Assembly: GCA_024638705.1 (NCBI GenBank)
Contig: JAHEJV010000008.1
Location: 1 to 36,851, forward strand
Source: Deltaproteobacteria bacterium
GTDB taxonomy: Bacteria; Myxococcota_A; UBA9160; SMWR01
Direction: 5' to 3'
DNA length: 36,851 nt
The translations under genes and the position numbers were made by a program. Under the pieces are notes generated by a model. The model did not search any database. It saw only the letters and a list, made by a program, of their open reading frames with translations, and was not told where the DNA came from. This document shows, piece by piece, positions 17,846-31,469 of this stretch; position 1 is the stretch's first letter, and the number at the start of each line of letters is the position of its first letter.

Positions 17846-17908
17846 GATTTTCGTCCTGCGAGATGGCGATTTTCGTCTTGTCAAAAGACGAAAACAAGAC
17901 GAAAATCG
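17846..17908. promoter_or_regulatory. Candidate operator of imuA-imuB: four GATTTTCGTCYTG-type half-sites forming a 42-bp palindrome
   Basis: Half-sites at 17846-17858 and 17868-17880 (forward, 22 bp apart), and at 17885-17895 and 17895-17907 (reverse, 11 bp apart). Perfect 15-nt arms CGATTTTCGTCTTGT/ACAAGACGAAAATCG at 17867-17881/17894-17908. Confidence 0.7.
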
Positions 17909-17916
17909 AAGATCCC

Positions 17917-18645
17917 ATGTCCCCCTCGCCCCCCGCGAAGGCCCGGGTCGCCCACGCGCGGCCCGGCCTGGCGCGCTTGCTGCGCGACCTCGGTCCCGAA
18001 CTCCAACGCGCCACCCAGTGCGCGAGCGACGAGCGCGAAGGCGTTCTCGCCACCGGTCTCCCCGCCCTCGACACCCTGGTCGACGGCGGCCTCGCCCGCG
18101 GGCGGCTCAGCGAGATCCACGGGCCGCCCTCTTCCGGCCGCACCTCGGTCGCCCTCTCCCTCCTGGCGCACACGACCGCGCGGGGCGCGCTCGCGGGATG
18201 GATCGACGGAGGCGACGCCTTCCACCCCGCTTCGGCGCAGGCCGCCGGTGTCGATCTCGAACGCGTCCTCTGGGTGCGGCCCCCGGGCGTCGCCGAGAGC
18301 GTGCGCTGCGCCGAGCGTCTGCTCGCGGCGCGCGGCTTCGCCGCGGTGGGGATCGATGTCGGCGGACGGGAACCAGAATGGGAAGCCCAGCCGACGGCGG
18401 TCTGGCAACGCCTGGTCCGCGCGGCGGCGGCCAGCGCGACGGCCCTGGTGGTGCTCTCCGGTCTGCAGCGGGTGACCGGCTCCTTCGCCGACCTCGCGCT
18501 CACCCTGCGCGCCACCCGCGCGCGCTTCACCGGCACGCCGAGCCTCTTCGAGGGGCTCGAGATCGAGGCCGCCGTGACGCGGCGACGACGCGGACCGCTG
18601 CGCGGCCCCGTCTCGGTGCGACTCCGCTCGGCGTCGGCGGCGTGA
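17917..18645 (+). CDS. imuA: ImuA-like (RecA-fold) mutasome accessory protein
   Basis: GVLATGLPALDTLVDGGLARGRLSEIHGPPSSGRTSVALSLLAHTTARGALAGWIDGGDAFHPASAQAAGVDLERVLWVRP; directly upstream of imuB. Confidence 0.85.
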   Translation: MSPSPPAKARVAHARPGLARLLRDLGPELQRATQCASDEREGVLATGLPALDTLVDGGLARGRLSEIHGPPSSGRTSVALSLLAHTTARGALAGWIDGGDAFHPASAQAAGVDLERVLWVRPPGVAESVRCAERLLAARGFAAVGIDVGGREPEWEAQPTAVWQRLVRAAAASATALVVLSGLQRVTGSFADLALTLRATRARFTGTPSLFEGLEIEAAVTRRRRGPLRGPVSVRLRSASAA

Positions 18646-18667: not shown

Positions 18668-20248
18668 ATGTCGGAGCGCCGCATCGCCTGCGCCCGCATC
18701 GCCGACCTTCCGCTCGCCGCCGAGTGGCGCGCCCACCCCGAGTGGCGCGGCCAGCCACTCGTCGTCGCCGAGGGCGAGGGGGCGCGCGCCGAGCTGATCT
18801 CCGTATCGCCGGAGGCCGCCCGGGTCGGCGTGCGCCGCGGCGCCAGCGTCGCGCACGCCCGCAGCGTCTGCGCGGAGCTCGTGGTGCGCGTGGTATCGCC
18901 CGCGTCGGGTCGCGCGGCGCGCGACACCCTGCTCGACGCCGCCCTCGCCTGCGCCCCGCGCGCCCGCCTCGCGGCGCCGGACCGCGGCGCGTTCGCGAAC
19001 GAAGCCGCCGTGTTCGTCGACGCGTCGGGCATCCAGTCGCTGTTCCGCTCGGAAGCCGGCTTCGCCACTGCGCTCGCCGCGCGCATCCGCGGGCTCGGCC
19101 TGCCCGCCGATGTCGCCATCGCGTCTTCGTGCAGCGTCGCGCGCATCGCGGCGCGCCAGATCGGAGTGGCCGACACCGATCCGTGTCGTAGCGAGGCATC
19201 CGAAGGACGCGTCCTCACGCTGCCCCCGGAACGCGAGCGCGCCTTCCTCGCGCCCCTGCCGATCGACCTGCTCGCCCCCGACGACGCCCTCGCCGGATCC
19301 CTCACCCGCTTCGGCGTGCATCGCGTGCGCGACCTGCTCGCCCTGCCCCGGCGCGGTCTCACCCACCGGCTCGGCAAGGACGCCCTCGGGCTGATCCGCC
19401 TCGCGGAAGGACGCGCGCAGGAGCCGCCCCTCCCCGAACTGCGCGAGACGCGCCTGGCCGAGGCGATCGATCTCGAAACGCCGGCCGAACGGATCGAGCC
19501 GCTGCTCTTCGTGTTGCAGGGCCTGCTGTCGCGCCTGCTCGAGCGCCTCGACGCGCGTCACCTCGGCTGCGGCGATCTCGCGCTCCAGCTCGACCTCGAC
19601 GGCGGCGGTCGCGACGCGCGCCAGATCGGCGTCGCCGCACCCACCGCCGACCTGCGCGTCCTCGTCCGCCTCCTGCGACACGCGCTCGAGTCCCGCGCGA
19701 TCGCGGCGCCGGTGCTCGGTGTATCGATCGAAACCCGGGGACGTCCGCTGCGTCGCGACCAGCTCGATCTGTTCCGGCCCGCGGGTCCGGCGCCCGCCGT
19801 GTTAGGCGAGACCCTCGCCGCGCTGCAGAGCCTGTGCGGCGAGGAGCGGATCGGCGCGCCGCTCGCCCCCGACAGTCACCACCCCGACGCCGAGGGGCTG
19901 CTCCCCTTCGCGCCTTCGCCGGCGTCTCCGGCCGCGAACGGACCCCCTCGGTCCGGCGGCGCCGGCGACGCGCTCGCCACCGGTGCCCTCGCCCTGCGCG
20001 CGCTGCGCCCCCCGCTCCCGGCCCAGGTGCGATCGCAGCAGCACCGCCCGGTGTGGCTGCGCAGCGCCGTCGCGAATGGTCGCGTCGTGCGCTGCGCCGG
20101 CCCGTGGCGCACGACGGGGGGCTGGTGGTCGCCCGAGGGACGCTTCGCCTTCGACCACTTCGACGTCCAAAGCGAGGATGGTGTGGTGGTTCGGCTCCGA
20201 TTCGACCACGTCGGACGCGTCTGGCAGATCGACGCCCTCTACGACTGA
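18668..20248 (+). CDS. imuB: ImuB-like inactive Y-family polymerase homologue
   Basis: Y-family-like layout lacking catalytic acidic motifs; DQLDLF clamp-binding motif; typical C-terminal HRPVWLRS...VVRCAGPWRTTGGWWSPEGRFAFDHFDVQSEDGVVVRLRFDHVGRVWQIDALYD. Confidence 0.92.
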   Translation: MSERRIACARIADLPLAAEWRAHPEWRGQPLVVAEGEGARAELISVSPEAARVGVRRGASVAHARSVCAELVVRVVSPASGRAARDTLLDAALACAPRARLAAPDRGAFANEAAVFVDASGIQSLFRSEAGFATALAARIRGLGLPADVAIASSCSVARIAARQIGVADTDPCRSEASEGRVLTLPPERERAFLAPLPIDLLAPDDALAGSLTRFGVHRVRDLLALPRRGLTHRLGKDALGLIRLAEGRAQEPPLPELRETRLAEAIDLETPAERIEPLLFVLQGLLSRLLERLDARHLGCGDLALQLDLDGGGRDARQIGVAAPTADLRVLVRLLRHALESRAIAAPVLGVSIETRGRPLRRDQLDLFRPAGPAPAVLGETLAALQSLCGEERIGAPLAPDSHHPDAEGLLPFAPSPASPAANGPPRSGGAGDALATGALALRALRPPLPAQVRSQQHRPVWLRSAVANGRVVRCAGPWRTTGGWWSPEGRFAFDHFDVQSEDGVVVRLRFDHVGRVWQIDALYD

Positions 20249-23798: not shown

Positions 23799-24664
23799 CT
23801 CCCGTCGAAGGCGGCGCGATCGCAACCGAACGCGCGGCGTGTCCCCTCTGCGGGGCGGCAGCGCATCATCCGCTCTACCCGCCGGCCGCGTTCGCGCCGT
23901 ACGGCGTCGTGCGCTGCGACGCGTGTCGCTTCGTCTTCCTCTCCCCGCGGCCACCGGAGCGCGCGCTCCGCGCGATCTACGAGAGCGGCGCCTACTACGA
24001 AGCGTCCGGCGACGAGGGATATGCGAGCTACGACGAGCAGGAAGAGGCGCTGCGCCTGACCTTCCGCCGCGTGATGCGCACGCTCGCGCGGCGCGGCCTC
24101 ACCGGCGGCGATCTCCTCGAGGTGGGTTGCGGTTTCGGCTTCCTGCTCGACGAGGCGCGCGGCCACTTCGCGCGCCGCCACGGCACCGAGATGTCGCCCC
24201 AGGCCGCCGCCGCGGCGGCCAAACGCGCCGACCACGTCGAGGTGGGCGATGCGATGCAGGCCCCGCGCGATGCGACCTACAACGTCGTGCTCTCGAGCCA
24301 GGTCATCGAACACGCGCATCGCCCGGTCGACTTCCTGGCCGATCAGCTCGCACGGCTGCGTCCCGGCGGCGCGCTCGTCGTGGCGACACCGTGGATGGGG
24401 AGCCCCTGGCAGCGCGTCCTCGGCAGCCGCTGGCCCTCCTTCAAGGTGCCCGAGCACGTGTGTTATTTCGATCGCGCGGCGCTGCACGGGCTGCTCGAAC
24501 GGATCGGACTCGTCGGGATCGAACGACTGCCGTGGCCGCACGCCTTCCCGCTCTCGCTGGTGGCGGCGAAGTTCGGCGCATCGCTTCCCGACGCGATCGG
24601 CCGGCGGCCGGTGTGGATCCCGGGCACGACGCTCGCCATGGTCGGGCGCAAGCCGCTCGTCTAG
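23795..24664 (+). CDS. Class I SAM methyltransferase with N-terminal zinc-ribbon-like CxxC pairs
   Basis: ACPLCGAAAHHPLYPPAAFAPYGVVRCDACRFVFLSPRPP...GDLLEVGCGFGFLLDEARG...SSQVIEHAHRPVDFLADQLARLRPGGALVVATP; GTGA overlap with upstream gene. Confidence 0.9.
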   Translation: MTPVEGGAIATERAACPLCGAAAHHPLYPPAAFAPYGVVRCDACRFVFLSPRPPERALRAIYESGAYYEASGDEGYASYDEQEEALRLTFRRVMRTLARRGLTGGDLLEVGCGFGFLLDEARGHFARRHGTEMSPQAAAAAAKRADHVEVGDAMQAPRDATYNVVLSSQVIEHAHRPVDFLADQLARLRPGGALVVATPWMGSPWQRVLGSRWPSFKVPEHVCYFDRAALHGLLERIGLVGIERLPWPHAFPLSLVAAKFGASLPDAIGRRPVWIPGTTLAMVGRKPLV

Positions 24665-25902
24665 GACGTCGAATCGTCCTCGCCGCGTTTGTGTTGGAGC
24701 GAGAGGCCGGAGCGTGCGGCGGGGCGGGCGTCACCCCGCACGACGGCGCTGTTGCCGAAGCGGTCGGCGATCGTGTCGAGGGCGCGGTTCAGGCGGGCCC
24801 GGCGCTCGTCGCGCGGTGCCGCGAAGAGCGCGAGCTGGCCGGTGTCGGCACTCACCAGGTTCGTCGCGCCGACGCCGAGCAACCGGACCGGTTCGGTGAG
24901 CGCGGCGCGCGACAGGAGCCGGGTCGCGACCCGGGAGAGCGTCGCGCCGTCGTCGCTGGCGTCGGCGAGGGTCGCGCGCCGCGTGAGCAGCGGATAGCCG
25001 CGCGGCCCGGCGGCCACGCGGCGCGCGAGCTTGAGCTTCAGCACGACGGTGCGCGCGCGCAGCCGGTCGCGTCGCAGACGCCGCGCGACGGATTCGGCGT
25101 GCGTGATCAGCGCCGACTCGAGCACCTCGCGCGACGAGACGTCCTCGCCGAAGGTGTTCTCCTCGCTGTACGACACCGCATCCCGGTAGGGCTCCACCTC
25201 GGAGAGGTCGCGGCCGCGCCCGAGACGCGCGAGCGCGAGACCCCAGTCGCCGAGGCGCGCTTCGAGCGCGCGAGGGTCGGCGCGGACGAGATCGTCGATC
25301 GTCTCGAAGCCCGCCTCGTGCAGGCGCCGTTCGGCGACGGGACCGACGCCCCAGATGCGACGCACGGTCAGCGGCGCGAGGAATTCGCGCACGCCGTCGC
25401 GGGGCACTTCGAGGAGTCCGTCGGGCTTTCCGAGGTCACTCGCGATCTTCGCCACCATCTTCACCGGGGCGATCCCGACCGACACGACGAGGCCGGTCTC
25501 CTCGGCGACGGCCTTCTTCAACGCTTCGCCCACTGCGCGCGGCGGGCCCCACAGGCGTTCCGTGCCGGTGAGGTCGAGGAAGGCCTCGTCGAGGGAGAGC
25601 CCCTGCACGACGGGCGTGAAGCGGCGGAAGATCTCGAAGATGCGCTTGCTCTCGGCGGCATAGCGCGACATCGATCCGCCGACGAAGACGAGATCGGGGC
25701 AGCGGCGCTTCGCCTCGATGCTCGGCATCGCCGAGTGCACGCCGAAGACGCGCGCCTCGTAGCTCGCAGCCGAGACGACGCCGCGCGGGCCGTCGCCGCC
25801 GACGGCGACCGGGCGTCCGCGCAGCTCGGGATGGTCGCGCTGCTCGATCGACGCGTAGAAGGCGTCCATGTCGGCGTGGAGCACGACGCGGGGGGCGTGC
25901 AT
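24661..25902 (-). CDS. dinB: DNA polymerase IV (Y-family)
   Basis: VVLHADMDAFYASIEQRDHPELRGRPVAVGGDGPRGVVSAASYEARVFGVHSAMP...GLSLDEAFLDLTG...VGIAPVKMVAKIASDLGKPDG; QLALF clamp motif. Confidence 0.97.
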   Translation of the reverse strand: MHAPRVVLHADMDAFYASIEQRDHPELRGRPVAVGGDGPRGVVSAASYEARVFGVHSAMPSIEAKRRCPDLVFVGGSMSRYAAESKRIFEIFRRFTPVVQGLSLDEAFLDLTGTERLWGPPRAVGEALKKAVAEETGLVVSVGIAPVKMVAKIASDLGKPDGLLEVPRDGVREFLAPLTVRRIWGVGPVAERRLHEAGFETIDDLVRADPRALEARLGDWGLALARLGRGRDLSEVEPYRDAVSYSEENTFGEDVSSREVLESALITHAESVARRLRRDRLRARTVVLKLKLARRVAAGPRGYPLLTRRATLADASDDGATLSRVATRLLSRAALTEPVRLLGVGATNLVSADTGQLALFAAPRDERRARLNRALDTIADRFGNSAVVRGDARPAARSGLSLQHKRGEDDSTS

Positions 25903-27888: not shown

Positions 27889-28086
27889 ATGAGCGCCCCG
27901 CTTCACACCGCAGCCCCCCAGCCCACCAGCACCGGAACCACCCTTCTCGCGCTCGTGCAGCGCCTCACGGACGAAGGCGTCCACGAAGACGTCGTGGTCG
28001 AGCGGGCGCTCGAGCTGCTCGAGACCGGCCAGGCCCACCTGACGGGCAACTTCCGCGGCGTCCCGGTGGCGGTGTTCCGCGCCTGA
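27889..28086 (+). CDS. Small hypothetical protein (65 aa)
   Basis: MSAPLHTAAPQPTSTGTTLLALVQRLTDEGVHEDVVVERALELLETGQAHLTGNFRGVPVAVFRA with AGGAGGAAC upstream of ATG. Confidence 0.6.
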   Translation: MSAPLHTAAPQPTSTGTTLLALVQRLTDEGVHEDVVVERALELLETGQAHLTGNFRGVPVAVFRA

Positions 28087-28115: not shown

Positions 28116-28154
28116 CTTCTTGAAGAAGGGCGAATAAAAGACGAAAATCCGTCT
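28116..28154. promoter_or_regulatory. dnaE2 upstream regulatory region: 13-nt palindrome plus a copy of the imuA half-site
   Basis: CTTCTT-G-AAGAAG at 28116-28128; AAAAGACGAAAATC at 28136-28149 (reverse GATTTTCGTCTTTT); AGACG-N6-CGTCT at 28139-28154; 8 nt from the GTG start. Confidence 0.6.
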
Positions 28155-28157
28155 CCC

Positions 28158-31100
28158 GTGTCCCGCCACCCCCCGGCTGCCGACTACGTCGAGCTGCGCT
28201 GCAAGAGCGCCTTCTCGTTTCTCGAGGCGTCCTCGAATCCGGAAGACCTGGCCGAGGTCGCGGCCGAGCGCGGCCATCACGCCCTCGCCCTCGCCGACCG
28301 CGACGGCCTCTACGGCATCCCGCGTTTCCACCAGGCGGCGAAGGCCGCCGGGGTCCGGGCGATCGTCGGCGCGGAGCTGGCGATCACCGATCGAGCCCCG
28401 CAAGCGGCCGCGGGCCGCGCGCAGCGAGGCGAAGCCGAGCGAGGTCCCAGCGGGCACGGACCCCGGCTGCAGCTGCTCGTCGAATCGCCGCGCGGCTATC
28501 GCCATCTCGCGCGCCTCGTCACCTGCGGACACGGGCGCGGCGAGAAGGGCGAGGCGAGCGTCACCTGGGACGAGCTGGAGGAGTACGCCGGCGAGTTGTG
28601 CGCCCTCGTCCACGGCGACGCCGCGGTCGACCGCACCGCGCTCGACCGCCTGCGCGCGCTCTTTCCCGGACGCCTGTGGGTCGACGTCTCGCGCCACGGC
28701 CGCCGTGACCAGGAGTGCGCCAACCGCCGCGCCGTCGATCTCGCCCTGGCGCTGGGCGTGCCCGTCGTCGCCACCGGCGACGTGCGCCACGCGCGCCCCG
28801 AAGACCGCAAGCTCACCGACGCCCTCACCTGTCTGCGTCACAAGACGCGCCTCGATCGCGCCGGCCGCGTGCTCGCCGCCAACGCCGAGCCCCATCTCCA
28901 TACCCCCGCCGAGATGGCGCGCCGTTTCGCCGACCGTCCGGAGTGGGTGCGCGCCACCCGCGCGATCGCCGAGCGCTGCGCCTTCACCCTCGAGAACCTC
29001 GGCTACCGCTTCCCCGAGTTCCCGATTCCGCCCGGTGAGTCGCAGGCGTCCTTCCTGCGCATCCTCACCGAGTACGGCGCGCGCGAGCGCTACGGCCACC
29101 CGGTGCCCCCGAAGGCGCGGCGTCAGCTCGAGCACGAGCTCGCGCTGATCGAGAAGCTCGAGCTCGCCGGCTACTTCCTGATCGTGCACGACATCGCGCG
29201 CTTCGCCCGCGAGGCACCGATGCTCGCCCAGGGCCGCGGCTCGGCTGCGAACAGCGCGGTGTGTTATGCGCTCGGCATCACCGCCGTCGACCCGGTGGCG
29301 ATGGGCCTGCTCTTCGAACGCTTCCTCTCGGAAGAGCGCGGCGAGTGGCCGGACATCGACATCGACCTGCCCTCGGGCGAGCAGCGCGAGTCGGTGATCC
29401 AGCACGTCTTCGAGAAGTACGGCCACCACGGCGCCGCGATGACGGCGGTGGTGATCACCTACCGCACGAAGATGGCGGTGCGCGAGATGGGGAAGGTGCT
29501 CGGGCTCGGCGACGACGCGATCGGGCGGCTCGCGAAGCTGCTCTCGAGCGTCGACCACCCGGAAGATCCCGGCACCGCCGAGGGCGCGTTGAAGGAAGCC
29601 GGCGTCGACCCCGGGTCACCGCGCATCGCCGCGCTGCTCGACCTGGTGTCGCGCGTGCGCGGACTGCCGCGCCATCTGGGCCAGCACTCGGGCGGCATCG
29701 TGATCGCCGCGGGCCGTCTCGACGAGGTGGTGCCGATCGAGCCCGCCGCGATGGCGAACCGCCGCGTCGTGCAGTGGGACAAGGAGGACTGCGCCGACCT
29801 CGGCATCATCAAGATCGACCTGCTCGGCCTCGGCATGCTCGCCGCGCTCGAGGACACGCTCGTGCAGGTGCAGCGACACGAAGGGGTGACGGTCGACCTC
29901 GCGAAGCTCCCCGCCGACGACCCCGACACCTACGCCATGATTCGCGAGGCCGACACCGTCGGCACCTTCCAGATCGAGAGCCGCGCCCAGATGGCGACGC
30001 TCCCGCGCATGAAGCCCGAGCGCTTCTACGACCTCGTCGTCGAGGTGGCGATCATCCGGCCGGGCCCGATCACGGGGAAGATGGTGAACCCGTATCTCGA
30101 ACGCCGCGCCGGACGCGAGCCCGTCCGCTATCCGCACCCGTGCCTCGAGCCGATCCTCGAGCGGACGCTCGGCGTCCCGCTCTTCCAGGAGCAGCTGCTG
30201 CGCATCGCGATGACGGCGGCCGGCTTCACGGGCGGCGAAGCCGAAGAGCTGCGGCGCGCGATGGGGTTCAAGCGTTCGGTGGAGCGGATGAGCCGGATCG
30301 AGGAGCGGCTCGTCGCGGGGATGACCGAACGAGGCATCGATTGCTCTGCGCAGGAGGAGATCCTGCGCGGCATCACCTCGTTTGCGCTCTACGGATTCCC
30401 CGAGTCGCACGCGGCGTCGTTCGCGCTGATCGCGTACGCGTCGTCCTACTTGAAGTGTCACCACCCGGCGGCCTTCCTCGCCGGCCTGCTCAACGCGCAG
30501 CCGATGGGCTTCTACAGCGCGGCCAGCCTGGTGAAGGACGCCCAGCGCCACGGCGTCGTGGTGCTGCCGATCGACGTCGCGCGGTCGGGGTGGAACTCGG
30601 AGTTGGAAGCAAGCCGGCCGGAGGCCGGCGCGCAGCGAGGCGAAGCCGAGCGAAGTCAAAAGGATGCCTCCGCCTCCCCTGAAGACTCTCCCCAGGAATC
30701 ATCGAGCCCGCTCCCGCAACGAACACCGCGCACTCGTTTCCTCGAGGTCCCCAGCCGAAACGAATGGGCCGTGCGGCTGGGGTTGCGGCGCGTCGCCGGA
30801 CTGCGCGAGGAGACGGCCGAGCGCATCGTCGCCGCGCGCGCCGACGCGCCCTTCGCGAGCGCCGCCGACCTCGCCGCGCGCGCCCGGCCGAGCCGCGAGG
30901 AGCTCGCCACCCTCGCCGAGCTCGGCGCCCTCGCGAGCCTCGACGCGACGACGCGAACGCGGCGACGGGCTCTCTGGCAGGTGACCGGCCTCTCGCGCGA
31001 CCCGCTGCTCGTCGGCGCGAGCCCGACGCCCGAGCCGTCGCCGCTGCCCGAGATGAGCCCCGTCGAGGAGACCCTCGCCGACTACGCCCGAAGCGGCCTC

Positions 31101-31469
31101 ACCACCGGCGTCCACCTGATGGCCCACCTGCGCGAAGGCCTCGACGCGCGCGGCCTGCTCTCCGCTGCGGCACTGCGCGAAGTGCCCGACGGACGCTTCG
31201 TCCGCACCGCCGGCCACGTGATCGTCCGCCAACGCCCGGGCAGCGCGAAGGGCTTCTGCTTCCTCACCCTCGAGGACGAGACCGGCACCTCGAACGCCGT
31301 CCTCACACCCGACGTCTTCCAGCGCTTCCGCATCGGCCTCCACAGCGGAGCGATCCTCGAGATCGCCGGGCCGGTGCAGAACGTGGAAGGGGTCATCCAC
31401 GTGCGGGTCCGCGACCTGCGCCCCCTCGTCCCCGGCTCCGAGCTGCCGCGCAGCCACGACTACCGCTGA
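28158..31469 (+). CDS. dnaE2: Error-prone DNA polymerase DnaE2/ImuC
   Basis: PHP start YVELRCKSAFSFLEASSNPEDLAEVAAERGHHALALADRDGLYG; WPDIDIDLPSGEQRESVIQHVFEKYG catalytic motif; GLPRHLGQHSGGIVIA; FALYGFPESHAASFALIAYASSYLKCHHPAAFLAGLLNAQPMGFYS. Confidence 0.95.
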   Translation: MSRHPPAADYVELRCKSAFSFLEASSNPEDLAEVAAERGHHALALADRDGLYGIPRFHQAAKAAGVRAIVGAELAITDRAPQAAAGRAQRGEAERGPSGHGPRLQLLVESPRGYRHLARLVTCGHGRGEKGEASVTWDELEEYAGELCALVHGDAAVDRTALDRLRALFPGRLWVDVSRHGRRDQECANRRAVDLALALGVPVVATGDVRHARPEDRKLTDALTCLRHKTRLDRAGRVLAANAEPHLHTPAEMARRFADRPEWVRATRAIAERCAFTLENLGYRFPEFPIPPGESQASFLRILTEYGARERYGHPVPPKARRQLEHELALIEKLELAGYFLIVHDIARFAREAPMLAQGRGSAANSAVCYALGITAVDPVAMGLLFERFLSEERGEWPDIDIDLPSGEQRESVIQHVFEKYGHHGAAMTAVVITYRTKMAVREMGKVLGLGDDAIGRLAKLLSSVDHPEDPGTAEGALKEAGVDPGSPRIAALLDLVSRVRGLPRHLGQHSGGIVIAAGRLDEVVPIEPAAMANRRVVQWDKEDCADLGIIKIDLLGLGMLAALEDTLVQVQRHEGVTVDLAKLPADDPDTYAMIREADTVGTFQIESRAQMATLPRMKPERFYDLVVEVAIIRPGPITGKMVNPYLERRAGREPVRYPHPCLEPILERTLGVPLFQEQLLRIAMTAAGFTGGEAEELRRAMGFKRSVERMSRIEERLVAGMTERGIDCSAQEEILRGITSFALYGFPESHAASFALIAYASSYLKCHHPAAFLAGLLNAQPMGFYSAASLVKDAQRHGVVVLPIDVARSGWNSELEASRPEAGAQRGEAERSQKDASASPEDSPQESSSPLPQRTPRTRFLEVPSRNEWAVRLGLRRVAGLREETAERIVAARADAPFASAADLAARARPSREELATLAELGALASLDATTRTRRRALWQVTGLSRDPLLVGASPTPEPSPLPEMSPVEETLADYARSGLTTGVHLMAHLREGLDARGLLSAAALREVPDGRFVRTAGHVIVRQRPGSAKGFCFLTLEDETGTSNAVLTPDVFQRFRIGLHSGAILEIAGPVQNVEGVIHVRVRDLRPLVPGSELPRSHDYR
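28400..28446 (+). repeat. In-frame core-only copy of the palindromic repeat inside the dnaE2 PHP region
   Basis: GCAAGCGGCCGCGGGCCGCGCGCAGCGAGGCGAAGCCGAGCGAGGTC; encodes QAAAGRAQRGEAERG. Confidence 0.85.
30609..30729 (+). repeat. In-frame full-length copy of the palindromic repeat inside dnaE2
   Basis: GCAAGCCGGCCGGAGGCCGGCGCGCAGCGAGGCGAAGCCGAGCGAAGTCAAAAGGATGCCTCCGCC...GAATCATCGAGCCCGCTCCCGCAACGAACACCGC; encodes ASRPEAGAQRGEAERSQKDASASPEDSPQESSSPLPQRTP. Confidence 0.95.

Follow-up and report, generated by a model that had tools for sequence, protein, structure and literature searches.

The window analyzed here, i.e., the whole stretch of 36,851 nucleotides, contains imuA, imuB, and dnaE2, the genes of the mutasome, as well as a dinB gene. 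On the forward strand, imuA (17917-18645) encodes a RecA-like protein of 242 aa (Pfam RecA; ImuA_translesion E=2e-13, below the curated cut-off) and is directly followed by an imuB-like gene (18668-20248) for a Y-family protein of 526 aa (Pfam IMS E=1e-15), with both assignments made from these weak family scores plus gene order. The three genes do not form a single imuA-imuB-dnaE2 operon: dnaE2 (28158-31469, forward strand), encoding an error-prone DNA polymerase III alpha of 1103 aa (NCBIfam NF004225, 1250 bits), starts 7.9 kb past the end of imuB. Just upstream of dnaE2, at 27889-28086, is a small reading frame (~65 aa) that has a good ribosome site (AGGAGGAACAGG). The dinB gene (24661-25902, reverse strand, 413 aa; Pfam IMS and IMS_C) served as an internal negative and has no box upstream. 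Among the 24 genomes, including this one, that carry imuA and dnaE2 on one contig, the two genes are always on the same strand (24/24) at distances of 1.8-17 kb, and they are separated in 23, the exception being genome G024.

The initial annotation had noticed that a 14-nt sequence before dnaE2, AAAAGACGAAAATC, recurs as "half-sites" before imuA in the same orientation relative to the gene. Sequence search of the window bore out this resemblance, with AAAAGACGAAAATC located at 28136-28149 (+), ending 8 nt before the dnaE2 GTG (28158), and two imuA-proximal copies, also on the forward strand, at 17883-17896 (2 mismatches) and 17894-17907 (1 mismatch), the imuA copy ending, as had been stated, 9 nt before the ATG (17917). 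At up to 3 mismatches, 0.59 matches are expected in the window and five are present: a single one upstream of dnaE2 and four upstream of imuA, of which two are on the opposite strand. The 4.76-Mb genome has five copies of AAGACGAAAA, of which four are upstream of imuA and dnaE2. The fifth, a single GAAGACGAAAATC copy near position 8549 of contig C406 (L009:3046-3059), has one repeat only and is flanked by a permease gene and a sigma-70-like reading frame, with an ogt-like gene downstream of the latter.

What is conserved in the upstream DNA of orthologues from 60 relatives, though, is not a half-site but a direct repeat, CGAA-N7-CGAA, with an 11-bp period. This period equals one helical turn, which puts both repeats on one face of the DNA. 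The first dnaE2 repeat unit, GGCGAA at 28129-28134, had been missed, and AAAAGACGAAAATC is instead the second unit of a full two-repeat operator within a promoter, consisting of the second repeat plus the -10 element; we thus rejected the half-site-only reading, since both repeats are there and are conserved in relatives. The operators are CGAATAAAAGACGAA before dnaE2 (28131-28145, +) and CGAAAACAAGACGAA before imuA (17889-17903, +), scoring 37.3 and 38.2 bits, respectively, with a matrix that was trained on relatives only, this genome being left out. The next-best score in the 36.8-kb window is 0.4 bits, and the dinB upstream region, already described as motif-free, reaches at best -13.8 bits. 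Two further elements that had been pointed out next to the motif, the palindrome CTTCTTGAAGAAG (28116-28128) and AGACG-N6-CGTCT (28139-28154), are present in the sequence but absent from every other orthologous upstream region examined, and were rejected as regulatory elements.

Across the order, exact CGAA-N7-CGAA is found upstream of dnaE2 in 41/46 relatives, imuA in 47/51, and lexA in 27/28, counts that come from related, non-independent sequences with DnaE2 identities of ~58-81% across most of the set. The conservation that co-regulation would predict before orthologous imuA and dnaE2 is therefore seen. When spacers of 0-20 were scanned over 300 bp of upstream DNA, a spacer of 7 was recovered in 40 (dnaE2), 47 (imuA), and 27 (lexA) sequences, versus at most 10 sequences for any other spacer and averages of 0.8-1.6 in shuffles. 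The imuA and dnaE2 copies are very similar within this one genome, as would be expected from chance likeness or if upstream DNA had recently been copied locally from one gene to the other; shuffled sequences fail to reproduce the repeat, however, and the boxes of both genes are kept in dozens of genera spanning the above DnaE2 identities, so this conservation in orthologues rules such an origin out for practical purposes. In genomes with imuA and dnaE2 apart, almost every copy of either gene is preceded by an operator of its own. In G024, the 1.8-kb gap between them leaves room for imuB only and dnaE2 lacks its own box, as expected if one operon promoter serves all genes. Together, an operator at each separate gene and none at the contiguous G024 dnaE2 support the initial proposal that imuAB and dnaE2 are co-regulated despite their separation, which is itself conserved.

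Structurally, the operator is embedded in a promoter. Before dnaE2, a -35 element TTGAAG (28120-28125, +) is placed 17 bp before a -10 element GAAAAT (28143-28148, +), itself 9 nt before the GTG; before imuA, TTGTCA (17878-17883, +) is placed 17 bp before GAAAAT (17901-17906, +), 10 nt before the ATG. The operator of both genes thus lies between -35 and -10 and overlaps the -10. Column frequencies among orthologues yield the same picture around the repeat, namely a -35 TTGAC, a 17-bp spacer, and a -10 GAAAAT/GAAAGT/GAAACT, with TTGAC as the commonest hexamer start at the -35 place (37/84; TTG in 56/84). The -10 position and spacing are conserved across 81 orthologous promoters, in which the start codon follows the -10 at a modal and median distance of 6 nt, nearly always 5-12. 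The 8 and 9 nt initially given for dnaE2 and imuA correspond to this gap, becoming 9 and 10 nt when measured from the -10 hexamer. Because the gap is most often 6 nt, the sequence suggests that the imuA and dnaE2 mRNAs are leaderless, with transcription starting on the start codon or right next to it.

Given that the second CGAA overlaps the -10 GAAAAT, with TTGAC 17 bp upstream, the repeat might be read as a conserved core promoter for a sigma factor only, with no operator at all. We regard this as very unlikely, since the first CGAA falls within the spacer, for which sigma requires no such sequence, the repeat of the lexA promoter is in reverse polarity and directly follows the -35 TTGAC, recA promoters are devoid of the repeat, and AAGACGAAAA hardly occurs elsewhere in the genome. 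In the order, many lexA promoters (L150, L151, L152, L156, and others) have a pair of boxes in opposite polarity, ~30-36 bp apart. In the window, two extra half-sites are located upstream of imuA on the reverse strand (17868-17881 and 17846-17859), 22 bp or two helical turns apart and oriented toward the main imuA operator; this pair could possibly represent a second, inverted LexA site of this genome.

The initial annotation left the regulator behind the shared motif unnamed; the shared regulation stands, and the evidence here points to LexA. LexA autoregulation usually shows itself in an operator before lexA. Nearly all relatives encode a single LexA, and that of this genome (G000:C326; TIGR00498, 195.8 bits vs a cut-off of 110.95) has the helix-turn-helix and, in an alignment with solved LexA structures, retains the Ala-Gly cleavage site as well as the active-site Ser and Lys. 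The combination of -35 and box at lexA, TTGACTTTCGN6TTTCG, was found in 45/80 same-order, 3/11 other same-class, and 0/288 rest-of-phylum genomes (2 matches in 379 genomes for the reversed control), so that within the phylum it is confined to this class. An exact box was not found within 220-260 bp of lexA in class members G309, G340, G192, and L071 or in the Bryobacterales L093 and L095. Box and LexA recognition helix vary together within the phylum: the helix reads SSVATVHKHVQHL (SSVATVHKH) in the class versus RSTNGVNDHLKAL (RSTNGVNDH) in other Myxococcota, and the wing reads KAWNRSRS versus REDMKSRA or similar. Outside the phylum, the Acidobacteria with the box at dnaE2 (L074, L075, L091, L093, L095, and L099) all have an ATVHKH LexA helix, and L075, L091, and L099 have the box at lexA as well. 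As positive controls, the same scan recovered GTTC-N7-GTTC at the Caulobacter and Brevundimonas lexA and GAAC-N4-GTTC at one Myxococcales lexA.

Upstream of recA, no box was found within 300 bp (0/30 genomes). An SOS site at recA is common to many SOS systems but not universal, and uncoupled cases are known. The boxless recA is nonetheless one of two points in favor of a different damage regulator, e.g., an XRE or WYL protein, acting on lexA, imuA, and dnaE2 through the repeat while LexA binds elsewhere; the other is that the damage response of Myxococcus xanthus is largely LexA-independent, with the XRE protein DdiA activating dnaE2 (PMC12288472). Against such a regulator, which we consider improbable, 27/28 lexA promoters contain the box, whose range tracks the class-specific LexA recognition helix, Acidobacteria included. 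Box-like repeats do occur ~2.3 kb upstream of recA, near pgpA in a pgpA-cinA-recA cluster (G000:C320:1988 in L302, and L338, L340, L347, L348, and L349); they may be a distant operator of this recA cluster in a few genomes or perhaps reflect coding constraint, because several of them fall inside the pgpA reading frame.

How far a LexA regulon would extend beyond these genes depends on the stringency of the pattern. The looser pattern RCGAANNNNRRVCGAAR is not enriched genome-wide over its reversed control (8 vs 14 in this genome), so the limits of the regulon cannot be drawn from the motif alone, and we rejected a genome-wide regulon built on it. With the stricter TTTCGN6TTTCG, most genomes have more matches than with its control (7 vs 1 in G000, the genome studied here, 10 vs 1 in G001, and 12 vs 0 in G052). 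LexA-type boxes stand directly before radical SAM genes whose products start with NPxxRFE (L328:1758, L329:2816, and L288:1501), and a gene for a radical SAM protein recurs among the SOS targets of other phyla (PMC7739468). Boxes of the TTGACTTTCG type stand at L310:2236, L311:3943, L312:4565, and L314:3085, three of them in one genome (G007), before genes whose proteins end in an HNH-endonuclease-like motif; the HNH assignment is a reading of this motif, and the L310 frame that was tested had no Pfam match. From their boxes, both the radical SAM gene (L288, L328, and L329) and the HNH-like genes (L310, L311, L312, and L314) are candidate additional targets. Further boxes were observed at L313, L315, L321, and L308.

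Based on the repeat, its spacing and conservation, its overlap with the promoter, its presence at lexA and absence from recA and dinB, and its co-variation with the LexA helix, we posit that the reported motif is very probably one half of a lineage-specific, direct-repeat LexA box that co-regulates lexA, imuA(B), and dnaE2, a co-regulation that the genomic evidence supports. Mechanistically, operators of the type RCGAA-N6-RCGAA, with their 11-bp period, fill the 17-bp spacer and overlap the -10 of the imuA(B) and dnaE2 promoters, such that LexA bound there and at lexA would block RNA polymerase. Upon DNA damage, RecA filaments would form and LexA would cleave itself, and lexA, imuAB, and dnaE2 would be derepressed together, with transcripts beginning on the start codon or no more than a few bases away from it. 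LexA binding, leaderless transcripts, and damage induction are predictions from the DNA sequence.

In an unrooted tree of full-length LexA, the class groups with Acidobacteria and Alphaproteobacteria (support 100/99), while the C-terminal domain alone rejects neither a grouping with other Myxococcota (p-AU 0.30) nor one with Acidobacteria (0.57). The RecA tree favors neither side on lateral LexA transfer. In the DnaE2 tree, whose sequences were picked for their similarity to the window, the class again sits next to Acidobacteria, along with two further Myxococcota sequences. An alphaproteobacterial-type lexA is on record for Acidobacterium capsulatum (a 2006 paper, as relayed in PMC3323433). 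As a tentative scenario, to which we give rather less than even credence, this Myxococcota class may have swapped its native LexA for one of acidobacterial/alphaproteobacterial type that brought CGAA-N7-CGAA with it, with the SOS response rebuilt around lexA, the split imuAB/dnaE2, the radical SAM gene, and HNH endonucleases, largely without recA and with leaderless promoters.

Among repressors, LexA is the textbook example of a binding site that differs from one bacterial group to the next. By 2021, 17 LexA motifs had been reported (PMC8565304), and in literature outside subscription journals we found no description of CGAA-N7-CGAA or of a LexA site for this class. The box would add a further direct-repeat motif, with matching recognition-helix changes, in an uncultured Myxococcota class and apparently part of the Acidobacteria, and it allows a direct test of the origin of tandem-site LexA and its movement between phyla. 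For many environmental genomes, the box further predicts that DNA damage induces mutagenesis, and a box at each gene offers a way for a split mutasome to remain co-regulated.

Compared with known systems, the box resembles the alphaproteobacterial GTTC-N7-GTTC in being a direct repeat with an 11-bp period at SOS promoters, including that of lexA, but differs in its half-site, which is CGAA(A) here (TTTCG on the other strand) and GAAC/GTTC there, and in the LexA recognition helix (SSVATVHKH here vs ASKSGIHRL in Alphaproteobacteria); GTTC-N7-GTTC itself was not found at the class lexA promoters scanned. With the Myxococcus-type and Gram-positive boxes (GAAC-N4-GTTC and relatives) it shares the protein family, the class of targets, and a GAA half-site core, whereas those boxes are palindromic and this one is tandem, and the LexA of other Myxococcota, with its RSTNGVNDH helix, goes without CGAA-N7-CGAA. 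The LexA direct repeat of Balneolaeota, TTACACATATTTTWTACATA (PMC7739468), is likewise an independent direct-repeat motif from an understudied phylum, but has another half-site and a regulon that includes recA. Finally, the genes and their predicted damage-type regulation are those of the LexA-regulated imuA-imuB-dnaE2 cassette, except that here the cassette is split over 1.8-17 kb, with each part under its own operator unless the genes are contiguous.
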